A DNA stretch of 64,000 bases from positions 41,757 through 105,756 of the forward strand of contig JAKSLJ010000008.1 of NCBI GenBank assembly GCA_024401275.1, given 5' to 3'. Position numbers and translations under genes: made by a program. Each line of letters opens with the position of its first letter. Position 1 is the first letter of the stretch. Below the pieces are notes generated by a model that saw only the letters and a program-made list of their open reading frames with translations, searched no databases and was not told the origin of the DNA. This DNA is from Bacteroidaceae bacterium. GTDB lineage: Bacteria; Bacteroidota; Bacteroidia; Bacteroidales; Bacteroidaceae. Shown here piece by piece: positions 48,958 to 53,177 of the stretch.

Positions 48958-50148
48958 TCATCTAACCAACAGTTTCTCCACAGTCATTCCTGAACCTAAT
49001 GTGTCAAGGTCAATCTCATGCAGGTCAACTGCGGGCGATTTTCCGTTTTCAGAATACTGATGAATATGGAAACTGCGAGTAGGAGTTCTGCCATATCGCG
49101 CATGCCATAAGATGTTGTCTTTCAGTTCACTACGGTCAACATGTATCGCGGCAATCTTCTCGTTGGCGTAAACAATAGGCTTTACGCCAAAGTGCTTCTC
49201 CACAGCATCGCACCACATCAGCAAAGAATCCGTTGAAACTCCAAACTGCTCTATATCCAACACTGGCGGCAAATCGCCTTTTTTCACTTGAACATTTGTC
49301 GTGAAATTGCTAATCTGCTCCTGAAGCGTGGCATATCTCTGGTTGAAGAAATGATAAGCGCCATGCGGTATTCCGAATCGCTCCGCCCAATCGCAATGCT
49401 TGGCATATTCGGCATCAACATATTCCTTTCCTTCGGTCGCTTTCAGAAAAACAAACGAAATTGGTATTACGCCAATCTGCTTGCTTATAGTGTCATTGTA
49501 AGTATAGGAAGAATCAACAGCAACATACATTCTATCCCAATGTACAATAGGCTGATAATGAGACAAATCCGTACCATAAATGCGCTTGTCGGTAATGATG
49601 TTCACATCTTTCTTTTCGCCGTTTTCGAAAAGGGCAAGTTCCGCGTTATTCTCCTTGCCGAATCCGCTTCTTTTTCCGAATGACCATTGGCCGTCGTAAG
49701 CATAACTGCCACAAACAATTTTTCCGATTCCGTCCGGTAGCAAAGTAAAGAAAAAGCCCTCATAATCAGCGGTTTTCGCCGTTAGAAACTGTTCATTCAG
49801 AGATTTCCACAAGGTGGCATTTCCACCAACAAAAGCTTCAACATTTCGGATTACGCAGTTTCCTTTTCGCAAGTCATCGTTGCGCCATTCTCCCTTGTAC
49901 CAGTTTCCATGACAAAGAAACTCGCCTTCGCCTTCGCGTTTTCCGTCATTCCACGAACCTTTGTAGATGCCATCATAAAGCATCATGTCAGGCGTTTTCA
50001 CTCCCGTATGCCAGAAAGCGACACCTTCTCCATGCGGATTGCCAGCAGCATTTCTTTCCCCAATGTACTCAAAAGAAGGGAAGAACAGCCTCACTATTGC
50101 CAGCAAAGCTACAAGAAGGAGAGAATATGGAATTATATATTTCTGCAT
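48958..50148 (-). CDS. Membrane-anchored MORN repeat and GH25 muramidase-like protein
   Basis: I use the ATG at 50148 (396 aa); the codon at 50160 adds four residues. Positions below count from 50160. After an N-terminal membrane helix (about 9-27) come MORN-type repeats (NPHGEGVAFW, YDGIYKGSWNDGKREGEGEF, HGNWYKGEWRNDDLRKG, and later YDGQWSFGKRSGFGKE, about 31-170). A GH25 domain (about 194-395) follows with YGTDLSHYQ (Asp198), FVFLKATEG, GAYHFFN and VLDIEQFG (Asp302, Glu304), the catalytic acids. GH25 enzymes cut between MurNAc and GlcNAc in peptidoglycan. The MORN part may bind lipid or wall. The gene is convergent with rodA, so a wall remodelling role is plausible. Confidence 0.85.
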   Translation of the reverse strand: MQKYIIPYSLLLVALLAIVRLFFPSFEYIGERNAAGNPHGEGVAFWHTGVKTPDMMLYDGIYKGSWNDGKREGEGEFLCHGNWYKGEWRNDDLRKGNCVIRNVEAFVGGNATLWKSLNEQFLTAKTADYEGFFFTLLPDGIGKIVCGSYAYDGQWSFGKRSGFGKENNAELALFENGEKKDVNIITDKRIYGTDLSHYQPIVHWDRMYVAVDSSYTYNDTISKQIGVIPISFVFLKATEGKEYVDAEYAKHCDWAERFGIPHGAYHFFNQRYATLQEQISNFTTNVQVKKGDLPPVLDIEQFGVSTDSLLMWCDAVEKHFGVKPIVYANEKIAAIHVDRSELKDNILWHARYGRTPTRSFHIHQYSENGKSPAVDLHEIDLDTLGSGMTVEKLLVR

Positions 50149-50203
50149 TGAATAAAACATTTCTGCCTATGGAAGAAAATGTTTCCACATATCATTGGCG
50201 CTG

Positions 50204-50259: not shown

Positions 50260-51324
50260 TCATGCTTTTCGCAATTCTCTTGGCGACACTCCTTCGTGCT
50301 GTTTGACAAAGCGAGTAAAGAGAATTGGAGACGAGAAACCCAGATTGTCTGAAATCTCCTGAATGGAAAGAGAGGTGTTCTGCAAGAGACTTTTGCTTTG
50401 TTGCAGCAGATGACCATCTATGATCTGCTTCGGTGTTTTCAACGCTACCATTCTTGTTATCTGCGCAAGATAACGCGGCGTGATGGCAAGCCGATCAGCA
50501 TAAAAAGCCACATCATGATTCGTGCGATGATGCTGAACGACGAGAGAAAGAAACTTATTGTACAACTCTTGCGGTCGAACACCATAATCTTCTGATTCCA
50601 CGGAATAAACAAGCCTGTTATGAAGATACTCGTGAGCATTCTGCAAAGCAAGTTCAATGCTGTCGCCCATAGCCAAACGAACGGCAAGAGCCATAGACGA
50701 ACTGCCGGCAACTCCATGTCGCTGCCATCCTTCAATGTTGTATGAAGAGAAGAAGCGGTGCTGTCCGTCGGCATAAAGAAGTGCCGTTACGCGACCTTCA
50801 GAGTGACAACTGCCACGGAGCAACACATATTCCGCACCGTCTTCATGAAATCGCTTCGCTGCTTCAACCATGTCATTATCAGTTATAATCTTCATGTCAA
50901 GGACAATCTCAGCCTCTTGGCTCTTCAGGACAAGCAGCTTGGTCAAAGGCATAAGACAACGATAGGCACGAACAGAAGCGTCGTCCATCAGTCGCGTTCC
51001 GTCAGAAGAAAATATTACCGGCGAACAGACAACATTGCGGCAACCCCTTATTTCGTCTCGAATGCGACTTATCGTTTCCGCTCCATTCACCATTCCAACC
51101 TTTATAGCTTTCGGAAGACAGTCGTCATACACAGCTCGAACCTGACCTGCCACAACCTCTGTTGGCATCTCACTAACCATCGTAATCCCCTGGCTGTTCT
51201 GAACCGTCACGGATGTTATCGCCGTCATGGCATAGCAACCAAGGTCTTTCACAACCTTGATATCTGCCTGTATGCCCGACCTTCCTGTACTGTCAGAACC
51301 GTTTATGCTTAATATTGGAGCCAT
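50260..51324 (-). CDS. ThiD/PdxK-like kinase domain fused to AraC-type DNA-binding domain
   Basis: The protein has 354 aa from the ATG at 51324. Residues 1-250 have the ribokinase-like ThiD fold: SINGSDSTGRSGIQADIKV (HMP-P kinase start), ITSVTVQNSQGI, KVGMV, and VLLRGSCH. The loop that in active enzymes reads HGTGC, with the catalytic Cys and anion hole, is here HGVAGSS (203-209), and the TPN before EA is LKSQEA, so kinase activity is doubtful. Residues about 254-354 are an AraC domain with two helix-turn-helices (FYADRLAITPRYLAQITR and IQEISDNLGFSSPILFTRF). It is divergent from pdxS, 168 bases away. It probably senses a B6 vitamer or HMP and regulates pdxST. Confidence 0.85.
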   Translation of the reverse strand: MAPILSINGSDSTGRSGIQADIKVVKDLGCYAMTAITSVTVQNSQGITMVSEMPTEVVAGQVRAVYDDCLPKAIKVGMVNGAETISRIRDEIRGCRNVVCSPVIFSSDGTRLMDDASVRAYRCLMPLTKLLVLKSQEAEIVLDMKIITDNDMVEAAKRFHEDGAEYVLLRGSCHSEGRVTALLYADGQHRFFSSYNIEGWQRHGVAGSSSMALAVRLAMGDSIELALQNAHEYLHNRLVYSVESEDYGVRPQELYNKFLSLVVQHHRTNHDVAFYADRLAITPRYLAQITRMVALKTPKQIIDGHLLQQSKSLLQNTSLSIQEISDNLGFSSPILFTRFVKQHEGVSPRELRKA

Positions 51325-51344
51325 CAAATTTTCTATTTACAATG

Positions 51345-51366
51345 TACATTTTACAAATTACATTTT
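51345..51366. repeat. Short direct repeat upstream of the kinase/AraC start
   Basis: TACATTTT occurs at 51345-51352 and 51359-51366, 14 bases apart, between the promoter and start codon of the kinase/AraC gene. It could be an operator or simply AT-rich spacer. Confidence 0.3.
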
Positions 51367-51371
51367 GGCTG

Positions 51372-51401
51372 CAAAGTTAATGAAAAGTAGCGAAAAACAA
51401 A
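51372..51401 (-). promoter_or_regulatory. Promoter of the kinase/AraC gene
   Basis: On the minus strand TTTG (51401-51398), 18 bases, then TAACTTTG (51379-51372). It is back to back with the pdxST promoter. Confidence 0.65.
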
Positions 51402-51442
51402 CTATACGAGAATAAAAATTTTACAGAACAGTTCCTTTTTCG

Positions 51443-51450
51443 TACTTTTG
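51443..51450 (+). promoter_or_regulatory. -7 element of pdxST
   Basis: TACTTTTG lies 43 bases before the pdxS start. The -33 region is only AT-rich, so activation by a regulator would fit. Confidence 0.55.
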
Positions 51451-51492
51451 CACAAGAATTCAACAATAAAATAACCCAAAACAGAAACTAAA

Positions 51493-52365
51493 ATGGAAGA
51501 CAGAACCCAACTGAACCGCAACTTGGCGCAGATGCTCAAGGGCGGTGTTATCATGGATGTTACAACACCAGAACAGGCACGCATAGCTGAAGCAGCTGGC
51601 GCTTGTGCTGTAATGGCATTGGAAAGAATACCTGCAGACATTCGTGCAGCAGGTGGCGTAAGCCGAATGAGCGATCCAAAGATGATTCGCGGCATCCAGG
51701 AGGCAGTTACAATTCCTGTAATGGCAAAGTGCCGTATCGGTCATTTCGCTGAGGCACAGATTCTTGAAGCTATCGAGATTGACTATATTGACGAGAGCGA
51801 GGTACTCTCTCCAGCAGATGATGTCTATCACATTGACAAGCGTAAGTTCAAGGTTCCTTTCGTCTGCGGAGCAAAGAATCTCGGCGAAGCTCTGCGCAGA
51901 ATAAACGAGGGCGCTACCATGATTCGTACTAAGGGAGAACCTGGCACAGGTGATATCATTCAGGCTGTTCGCCATATGCGCATGATGCAAAGCGAGATTC
52001 GCCGTCTTGTTTCCATGAGCGAAGACGAACTCTACGAAGCAGCAAAGCAGCTTCAGGTGCCTTACGACCTCGTACAGTATGTACACGAGAACGGCAAGAT
52101 GCCTGTTGTGAACTTCGCAGCCGGTGGTGTTGCTACTCCTGCCGACGCAGCACTCATGATGCAACTCGGAGCGGAAGGCGTATTCGTAGGTAGCGGTATC
52201 TTCAAGAGTGGCGATCCAGAAAAGCGCGCACAAGCTATTGTCAAGGCTGTGACTAACTACAACAACCCAAAGATTCTTGCAGAACTGAGCGAAGATCTCG
52301 GCGAAGCTATGGTTGGAATCAACGAAAGCGAGATACAGCTTCTCATGGCTGAGCGCGGCAAATAA
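51493..52365 (+). CDS. pdxS: Pyridoxal 5'-phosphate synthase subunit PdxS
   Basis: The protein has 290 aa. PdxS (Pdx1) makes PLP directly from ribose 5-phosphate, glyceraldehyde 3-phosphate and ammonia. It has a TIM barrel with family signatures [52 protein letters not shown] (catalytic Lys), [11 protein letters not shown] (second Lys) and [19 protein letters not shown]. The length is normal. pdxT follows by 15 bases. It is divergent from the kinase/AraC gene. Confidence 0.97.
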
Positions 52366-52380
52366 GGCTTTTTTTATTTT

Positions 52381-52920
52381 ATGATAATTGCAATTTTAGC
52401 ATTACAAGGAGCATTTGCTGAACATCAGCAGATGCTTCAACGTCTTGGTGTTGAATCGTTTCTCGTAAGGAACATTAACGATTGGAACAAACCGAAAGAC
52501 GCTCTCATCATCCCTGGCGGCGAAAGCACGGCTATGATGAAAATCATGAACGACGAAGGACTTACTGAACCTATCAGAAACGCCATTCGCGAAGGACTTC
52601 CCGTTTTCGGCACTTGCGCAGGACTTATCATGCTCGATTCAGACCACCTTAACACAATGAATATCACAGCAAAGCGCAACGCATACGGCAGGCAGTTGGG
52701 AAGTTTCTATACAGAAAGTGGCTTTGAGGGCATCGGCACTATCCCGATGACCTTTATCCGTGCTCCGTATATAGAAAAAGTTGGCGAAAATGTAGATGTT
52801 CTTGCGGTTGTTGATGGTAAAATCGTCGCAGCACGCCAAGAAAAACAGCTTGTTTGTGCATTCCATCCAGAACTGAACACAGACACTAAGATTCACGAGT
52901 ACTTCATCAACATGATTTGA
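52381..52920 (+). CDS. pdxT: Pyridoxal 5'-phosphate synthase glutaminase PdxT
   Basis: The protein has 179 aa. It is a class I glutaminase that supplies ammonia to PdxS. Motifs are ILALQGAFAEHQQML, IPGGESTAM, FGTCAGLIML (nucleophile Cys) and CAFHPELNTD (His and Glu of the triad). It is the second gene of pdxST, ended by a clear hairpin at 52926. Confidence 0.96.
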   Translation: MIIAILALQGAFAEHQQMLQRLGVESFLVRNINDWNKPKDALIIPGGESTAMMKIMNDEGLTEPIRNAIREGLPVFGTCAGLIMLDSDHLNTMNITAKRNAYGRQLGSFYTESGFEGIGTIPMTFIRAPYIEKVGENVDVLAVVDGKIVAARQEKQLVCAFHPELNTDTKIHEYFINMI

Positions 52921-52966: not shown

Positions 52967-52969
52967 TGA

Positions 52970-53042
52970 GCCTCTTGTCGGATTCGAACCAACGACCCCG
53001 AGATTACAAATCACGTGCTCTGGCCAACTGAGCTAAAGAGGC
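52970..53042 (-). tRNA. tRNA-Thr (anticodon TGT)
   Basis: On the minus strand the acceptor GCCTCTT pairs with AAGAGGC. The D arm is GCTC..GAGC, the anticodon loop TTTGTAA gives TGT (reads ACA), and the T arm is GTTGG-TTCGAAT-CCGAC. There is one T-T mismatch in the anticodon stem. No CCA is encoded. It lies directly after the probable SRP RNA. Confidence 0.93.
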
Positions 53043-53044
53043 GG

Positions 53045-53145
53045 GTGGGCAAGCTACTTATATCGCGTCGCTACAACCAACTACCTTTGCTATGTTCCCA
53101 TCCTGGAGGATTCGAAGGGAGCTGACCGTACAAGACTTACCCGTC
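53045..53145 (-). ncRNA. ffs: Signal recognition particle RNA (small, 4.5S type)
   Basis: About 100 nt on the minus strand. The ends pair (GGGTAAGT-CTTGTA with TATAAG-TA-GCTTGCCC), and the middle holds GGTCAGCTCCC and GGATGGGAACATAGCAAAGG, which fits the domain IV hairpin of bacterial SRP RNA as I know it from Bacteroidetes. It is followed within a few bases by tRNA-Thr and preceded by a promoter box. It partners Ffh and FtsY. Confidence 0.72.
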
Positions 53146-53177
53146 TATTTTTATGCTATTCTTTCGTTTAGCGGGTG

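Follow-up and report, generated by a model that had tools for sequence, protein, structure and literature searches.

In the passages on it in PMC5320631, PdxR, a regulator of the MocR type, activates pdxST and is countered by pyridoxal 5′-phosphate (PLP). A second relevant system is the family of ThiD-type kinases; S. aureus PdxK is described in sections of PMC7093009 as phosphorylating both pyridoxal and hydroxymethylpyrimidine (HMP). In this work we analyze a ThiD-AraC fusion gene that is divergent from pdxS and pdxT in a 64,000-nucleotide stretch of DNA (the window) from a Bacteroidaceae bacterium (GenBank assembly GCA_024401275.1, contig JAKSLJ010000008.1, positions 41,757 to 105,756 of the forward strand; coordinates below are those of the window unless a locus handle is given). 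Our reading, to which we assign a probability of approximately 75%, is that the fusion encodes a dedicated, one-component regulator of pdxS-pdxT (PLP synthase) in which the pocket of a dead ThiD is a putative sensor for a B6 vitamer.

Three features recall PdxR, as portrayed in the same passages: the fusion is a proposed one-component regulator, it borders the same intergenic region as pdxST, and its putative sensor domain is derived from an enzyme. The parts are different: the DNA-binding domain is GntR in PdxR but AraC in the fusion, and the ancestor of the sensor is an aminotransferase in PdxR but ThiD, with its ribokinase fold, in the fusion. The fusion also belongs by sequence to the same fold family as ThiD and the ThiD-type pyridoxal kinases, and it largely keeps their substrate-side motifs; in contrast to these enzymes, it lacks the catalytic Cys and the TPN motif, its nucleotide side is degraded or shortened, and a DNA-binding domain has been added. 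It shares with the AraC/XylS regulators an HTH_18 match at the C terminus that passes the curated cut-off, as well as a candidate site next to the −33 region; in most of those regulators the N-terminal sensor is a cupin or another domain, and in the fusion a dead kinase takes its place. Archaeal ThiR (ThiN domain) and RbkR (riboflavin kinase) are also vitamin-pathway regulators built from vitamin enzymes, although the enzyme domains and the vitamins differ from those considered here and the organisms are archaea. The fusion would then be an enzyme-derived, one-component vitamin regulator that is PdxR-like in its target and is made of different parts. In the open-access literature we found no description of a ThiD-AraC regulator, which may be described elsewhere, and, again in that literature, none of the control of B6 synthesis in Prevotella and its relatives; in a word search, AraC is unmentioned in PMC9997740, PMC5320631 and PMC6593275.

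The fusion gene (50260–51324, minus strand, ATG at 51324), the proposed pdxST regulator, is an open reading frame (ORF) of 354 amino acids. Residues 11–243 (50596–51294, minus strand) match Pfam Phos_pyr_kin with 184.3 bits (E 3.2e-54; cut-off 27), and residues 275–353 (50266–50502, minus strand) match the AraC/XylS C-terminal domain HTH_18 with 60.3 bits (E 2.3e-16; cut-off 33.6); the score for HTH_AraC, 24.2, is just below its cut-off of 26.6. The closest solved structures by sequence are HMP-phosphate (HMP-P) kinases, although the score against the HMP-P kinase family TIGR00097, 173.9 bits, is less than the cut-off of 204.95. A Pfam scan of the protein (E 0.01) detected neither a GntR nor an aminotransferase-like domain, that is, neither part of the MocR make-up. 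On the opposite strand are pdxS (51493–52365; PdxS NF003215, 514 bits) and pdxT (52381–52920; PdxT TIGR03800, 213 bits), both above their family cut-offs, and the 168 bp at 51325–51492 form the divergent control region. The architecture and the divergent arrangement that the original prediction had read from this DNA are, accordingly, as it described them.

Where the fusion occurs, pdxS nearly always does too. In a sample of 200 genomes from the genus, pdxS is found in 93 and the fusion in 86 (E 1e-70); all 86 fusion genomes have pdxS, and the fusion is found in none of the 107 genomes that lack it (Fisher 7e-49, a statistic that ignores relatedness), so the genomic link to pdxST that is known for PdxR is found for the fusion as well. 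Seventy-five of the 86 are located ≤1.5 kb from pdxS, 71 of them upstream of it in the same orientation and the others either divergent (2) or convergent (2); of the 11 remaining fusions, 8 are elsewhere on the contig and 3 are on other contigs. The family sample (151 genomes, 26 with pdxS) contains at least 22 fusions including the window's own, identified by a protein search followed by reading of the loci, and all of the at least 22 that were listed are beside pdxS. In the order sample (344 genomes), 15 have pdxS above the cut-off, and profile A1 identified nine fusions in eight genomes, in seven of which the fusion is next to pdxS; in these 344 genomes the profile separates fusions (≥339 bits, matched end to end) from canonical ThiDs (≤217 bits, matched in the ThiD part only). 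Only the best candidates in each genome were scored (≤6 in the order sample, ≤11 in the genus sample), so some fusions may have been missed. At the phylum level (395 genomes; E 1e-70; best ≤5 candidates per genome scored) only the window's own fusion was recovered, and no relatives of the fusion were found in a viral sequence collection.

Other B6 genes are occasional partners. In two genomes (G971 and G1055) the gene order is fusion, pdxS, pdxT and a pyridoxamine-kinase-like gene, all on one strand, and in a third (G937) the fusion is unlinked to pdxS and adjoins a pyridoxamine kinase (273 bits; cut-off 231). Family searches with some of the neighbors of 7 of the 11 unlinked fusions identified XerD, EttA, a FucP-like transporter, the pyridoxamine kinase and others, with some neighbors having no match at all; no thiamine biosynthesis gene was identified among the neighbors searched, and one ThiF-family protein is nearest to TcdA and below every cut-off. 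We rejected a thiamine link on this basis; in the genus sample the homologs accompany pdxST rather than thi genes, as the original prediction requires. We also rejected a MocR-type PdxR acting alongside the fusion: MocR proteins are longer than 349 amino acids, and in 36 fusion genomes no GntR match fell in a reading frame >349 amino acids.

The fusions fall into two size classes; those listed from the family sample include 5 full-length (354–367 amino acids) and 17 short (292–339 amino acids) proteins. We aligned 75 fusion rows, in which one contig is present twice (L124 and L253). In 34 rows, 67–74 residues separate the positions of window residues 133 and 203, compared with 68–86 in canonical ThiDs; in the remaining 41 only 7–42 residues are present, that is, 28–63 residues of the nucleotide side have been lost. 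A maximum-likelihood tree built from 142 ThiD domains places the 67 canonical ThiDs and the 75 fusion rows on opposite sides of a single branch (SH-aLRT support 99%), which fits one origin for the fusions, with the root of the tree unplaced. Three switches between full-length and short forms are required on the best tree; because its strongly supported branches force only one, we do not claim independent shortenings. The window protein groups with three others (L115, L006 and L114; 99%), and their genes are likewise divergent from pdxS. A still shorter fusion is found beside pdxS in G898 (L300, 565–1347), an open frame of 261 codons in which query residues 89–200 have no match. In G049, which has an intact fusion, a ThiD-like gene is in two pieces in different frames (L051, 4706–5490).

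The ThiD-like domain has lost its catalytic parts and kept much of its substrate side. In an alignment with 120 canonical ThiDs (the set after removal of 22 fusions from pdxS loci), every one of these ThiDs has Cys207 of the HGTGC loop together with T132, P133 and N134; Cys207 is present in none of the 75 fusion rows, and TPN at 132–134 is likewise found in none. The window protein has, as originally predicted, the degenerate anion-hole loop HGVAGSS (residues 203–209; 50698–50718, minus strand), and its KGGH motif is also altered. The loss of TPN was predicted as well, with LKS named as its counterpart; the loss is confirmed, although the alignment places VLK at residues 132–134, one residue off. 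Substrate-side residues, which had been described as kept, are largely so; the exceptions in the window protein are G15 (Arg), T44 (Ser) and V47 (Ile). Across the family, no row lacks H203, G204 or G77, and K75 and Q42 are kept in 74 and 72 of the 75 rows; the HGTGC Cys, through its part in catalysis, and Q42 have recognized roles in ThiDs. In the 36 fusions of our first alignment (12 full-length and 24 short), cells at ThiD-invariant positions in residues 1–112 are kept in 270 of 372 cases (73%) for the full-length and 560 of 744 (75%) for the short forms; in residues 113–202 the corresponding values are 36 of 120 (30%) and 8 of 240 (3%). The substrate side also has residues of its own: T13 (63 of 75 rows), I47 (71 of 75) and R80 (67 of 75) occur in none of the 120 ThiDs, and the window protein has T13 and I47, with Asn at position 80. 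From these residues the fusion protein is almost certainly catalytically dead, as had been proposed; nucleotide binding and catalysis appear to have been given up, with a substrate pocket that is retained and probably changed in specificity.

An operator-like motif accompanies pdxST in the relatives. Unsupervised expectation-maximization on 29 upstream regions, the window excluded, yielded a 22-bp motif, TTTgTTTgTCAAAAtgGGAACT, with a log-likelihood ratio of 214.8 for 28 regions, whereas 30 sets simulated to match their dinucleotide tendencies reached ≤88.2. With the site threshold set at the 99th percentile of the background (10,374 stretches, real sites masked), we found a site upstream of the fusion or pdxS in 33 of 45 genus fusion genomes; these 45 are part of the 86 and exclude the window's genome and G056 and G150, which are the window or training sequences. 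Two further genomes were dropped for a held-out count, one on the same contig as a training sequence (G899, with L124; a miss) and one a 96–98% copy of another (G1009, of L034; a match), and a site precedes the pdxST unit in 32 of the remaining 43. In contrast, none of 16 pdxS promoters of fusion-less genomes (G898 and G978 excluded) has a site. In 31 of the 33 cases the TTTG of a −7-like box is 31–32 nt downstream of the site (4% by chance for a seven-start span). The site is mostly located before the fusion where the two genes are tightly coupled and before pdxS where they are not: pdxS itself carries the site in 7 of the 11 genomes with a more distant fusion, and in one of the genomes (G994) a 21.0-bit site is at pdxS with the fusion 508 kb away. 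The control of pdxST that had been proposed for the fusion is borne out to this extent, and we consider it very probable, from these genomic patterns, that the fusion regulates pdxST.

A strict form of the pattern was searched in 38 genomes, 37 with the fusion; the fusion-less one (G904) has no match. There are 15 matches in 15 genomes, with 4 for the reversed control, and 14 are just upstream of the fusion gene, 5 of them in genomes that had supplied motif training sequences. Because 14 of 15 matches are at the fusion locus, the regulon looks local, with the strict pattern expected to miss weaker sites; the fusion regulator probably has a single target. The sole match away from the fusion locus (G1008; L327, 2668–2689) is inside a 160-amino-acid ORF. 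By eye, the operator upstream of the fusion is extended to an imperfect palindrome in five loci (L036, L037, L038, L039 and L112), e.g., AAATGATGTT..AACATCATTT in L038; palindromic operators are atypical of AraC proteins, for which direct repeats are the usual target.

In the window, the predicted back-to-back promoters are recognizable by eye as divergent −7-like boxes, TACTTTTG for pdxS (51443–51450, plus strand) and TAACTTTG for the fusion gene (51372–51379, minus strand), in what we take to be the Bacteroidetes promoter type with −7 and −33 boxes. For the fusion gene, TTTG is at the −33 position (51398–51401, minus strand; 18 bp upstream of the −7-like box), also by eye. For pdxS, the −33 box is missing, in agreement with the original prediction: TTTA is found in place of TTTG (51420–51423, plus strand; 19 bp upstream of the −7-like box). 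A scan for the sigma-70 consensus gave 2 sites, with 1.0 expected, and no Rfam RNA element was found in 51325–51492 at gathering scores, the only matches being a tRNA and a signal recognition particle (SRP) RNA beyond pdxT.

Several observations weigh against our reading. The window's own control region, which the original prediction had named as the binding span, does not have a convincing site: intergenic scores peak at 2.55 bits under the first matrix, a value that 28% of random stretches reach, and with a matrix of the full-length class (33 regions, the window excluded) the best match, 51398–51421 on the plus strand, has 3.9 bits (P 0.22) and is not significant. This match is a candidate degenerate pdxS operator; its GAA core (51410–51412) is 37 nt before the TTTG of the −7-like box, the register of the relatives, in which the spacing is 36–37 nt in 11 of the 12 shown and 30 or 46 in the remaining one. 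The register in the window was spotted by eye before the full-length-class matrix was built. The window protein is the longest branch of its subgroup (0.56) and has Pro at position 333, which would be in the second recognition helix, where at least 90% of A1 have Gln; the long branch and Pro333 would fit a diverged operator in the window. Elsewhere, 12 of the 45 scored fusion genomes are under the site threshold, and 23 of the 38 genomes searched have no match to the strict pattern. Fusions above threshold are absent from 4 of 26 pdxS genomes in the family sample (among the matches listed), 8 of 15 in the order sample and 7 of 93 in the genus sample, where one of the seven is G898, with its still shorter fusion, and another (G978) has only a partial pdxS. 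Conversely, the fusion of G449 is present without a detected pdxS, G168 carries, besides its fusion at pdxS, a short one located elsewhere (L116, 4973–5887), and at L132 no pdxS is found within 5 kb. The TIGR00097 cut-off is exceeded by one fusion, that of G979 (208.4 vs 204.95), although this protein has HGMSSNLSS as its loop. Finally, the genomes are related, and the co-occurrence counts are not independent events.

Some of these loci have further features. The G898 fusion is below the profile threshold, and a 20.7-bit site precedes its pdxS. The G449 fusion (L113, 5012–5965) has a motif-like upstream site of its own, and its upstream neighbor is FAD-binding and fumarate-reductase-like. The short fusion of G168 is ~57 kb from the full-length one at pdxS and is located between AAA_14/DUF4143 and beta-galactosidase genes.

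The mechanism that we propose begins with a ThiD-type kinase that would have lost its catalytic Cys and nucleotide-binding residues, with most of the substrate pocket left in place, and that would have gained an AraC-type DNA-binding domain. The pocket would bind a B6 vitamer, possibly PLP, the product of the controlled genes; when B6 is scarce the protein would occupy its site immediately before the −33 region and activate pdxST, and binding of the ligand would switch activation off. A B6 vitamer is a likely ligand, with PLP or pyridoxal the best candidates, for four reasons: the target genes, like the extra partners seen in a few genomes, are B6 genes; in 23 of 36 fusion genomes nothing scores over the ThiD (TIGR00097) cut-off; ThiC was not detected in the window's own genome (91% complete); and pyridoxal can serve as substrate for a ThiD-type kinase (PMC7093009, in the sections cited above). 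We lean toward an activator that is relieved by its ligand, because the site is just upstream of the −33 region, because the window pdxS lacks TTTG at −33, and because of AraC-family habits and the analogy with PdxR (as given in the passages of PMC5320631).

The main alternative concerns the sign of control. A repressor that blocks pdxST when B6 is plentiful, with PLP as corepressor, would be consistent with a motif that ends near the −33 region, so that the protein bound there could obstruct polymerase, and with the sites before the fusion itself, which imply autoregulation. The lack of the TTTG −33 box at the window pdxS argues against it, and most AraC-family regulators acting adjacent to the −35 region are activators. 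In addition, the MocR regulator PdxR activates pdxST, with PLP opposing (PMC5320631, same passages). Repression is, in our judgment, the less probable sign, with perhaps a quarter of the weight.

Next, the ThiD-like domain could be a scaffold, used, e.g., for dimerization or for contact with PdxS or PdxT, and not a sensor for small molecules. The short forms give this idea some substance, since they lack 28–63 residues of the domain and a complete pocket is uncertain in them. A scaffold is not expected to keep H203, G204, G77, K75 and Q42 nearly without exception, and the retention of invariant positions on the substrate side (73–75%), compared with ≤30% in residues 113–202, argues in the same direction; we regard a scaffold as unlikely.

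Less probable still, and doubtful in our view, is a pdxST regulator whose ligand is HMP or HMP-P, which would tie B6 synthesis to thiamine status. Descent from the ThiD family, with much of the GSD..QAD and VQN motifs of canonical ThiDs kept, is what such a ligand would lead one to expect. However, the partner genes seen are B6 genes, the substrate side has T13, I47 and R80 (Asn in the window), which no ThiD in the set has, and the missing matches to TIGR00097 and ThiC, described above, also speak against it.

A bifunctional protein, that is, a DNA-binding regulator that still works as an HMP or pyridoxal kinase, is very improbable. The ThiD fold, the Pfam score and the G979 score above the HMP-P kinase cut-off can be cited for it, as can the existence of dual HMP/pyridoxal kinases with the ThiD fold (sections of PMC7093009); however, Cys and TPN are absent from every row, KGGH is changed in the window, the nucleotide-side segment is shortened in 41 of 75 rows, and the window protein is itself under the cut-off. 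An active kinase was rejected on these residues. Least probable of all is that the fusion gene is simply carried along with pdxST and has another target: inheritance could account for adjacency by itself, but the co-occurrence persists in the 11 genomes with a distant fusion, the motif is before pdxS in 7 of those 11 and before none of the fusion-less pdxS genes, and all but one of the strict pattern matches are at the fusion locus.

Published expression data may include one of these loci. In RNA-seq of Prevotella bivia in a three-species biofilm, pdxT (3.43-fold), pdxS (3.03-fold) and PREBIDRAFT_RS05120 (2.68-fold) are up-regulated and are among the ten most induced genes of this species, with agreement by qPCR for pdxT; PREBIDRAFT_RS05120 is annotated as a bifunctional HMP kinase, and the main text does not contain the word thiamin (PMC11410844). 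This gene is likely the fusion beside pdxST.

The window has two further features next to this locus. Directly past pdxT, on the opposite strand (52969–53149, minus strand), are a tRNA gene and a Bacteroidales small SRP RNA (RF04183, 111 bits). On the other side, a 400-amino-acid ORF (48958–50160, minus strand) has, by eye, MORN-like repeats followed by a domain that looks like a GH25 lysozyme type.

On balance we favor the view that the fusions are a new family of B6-responsive regulators that arose within the Bacteroidales from a ThiD kinase; the dead pocket would read a vitamer, probably PLP, and the nucleotide side would then have been trimmed stepwise in many members (7–42 residues, compared with 70 in the window protein). 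If so, this is a second, independently invented B6 regulator next to PdxR, made from another vitamin enzyme. The graded series of active ThiDs, dead full-length domains and dead shortened domains opens the change from enzyme to sensor to study. The fusion genes are probably annotated as HMP kinases, and this annotation would mislead predictions of thiamine salvage, because 23 of the 36 fusion genomes lack any match that passes the ThiD cut-off.

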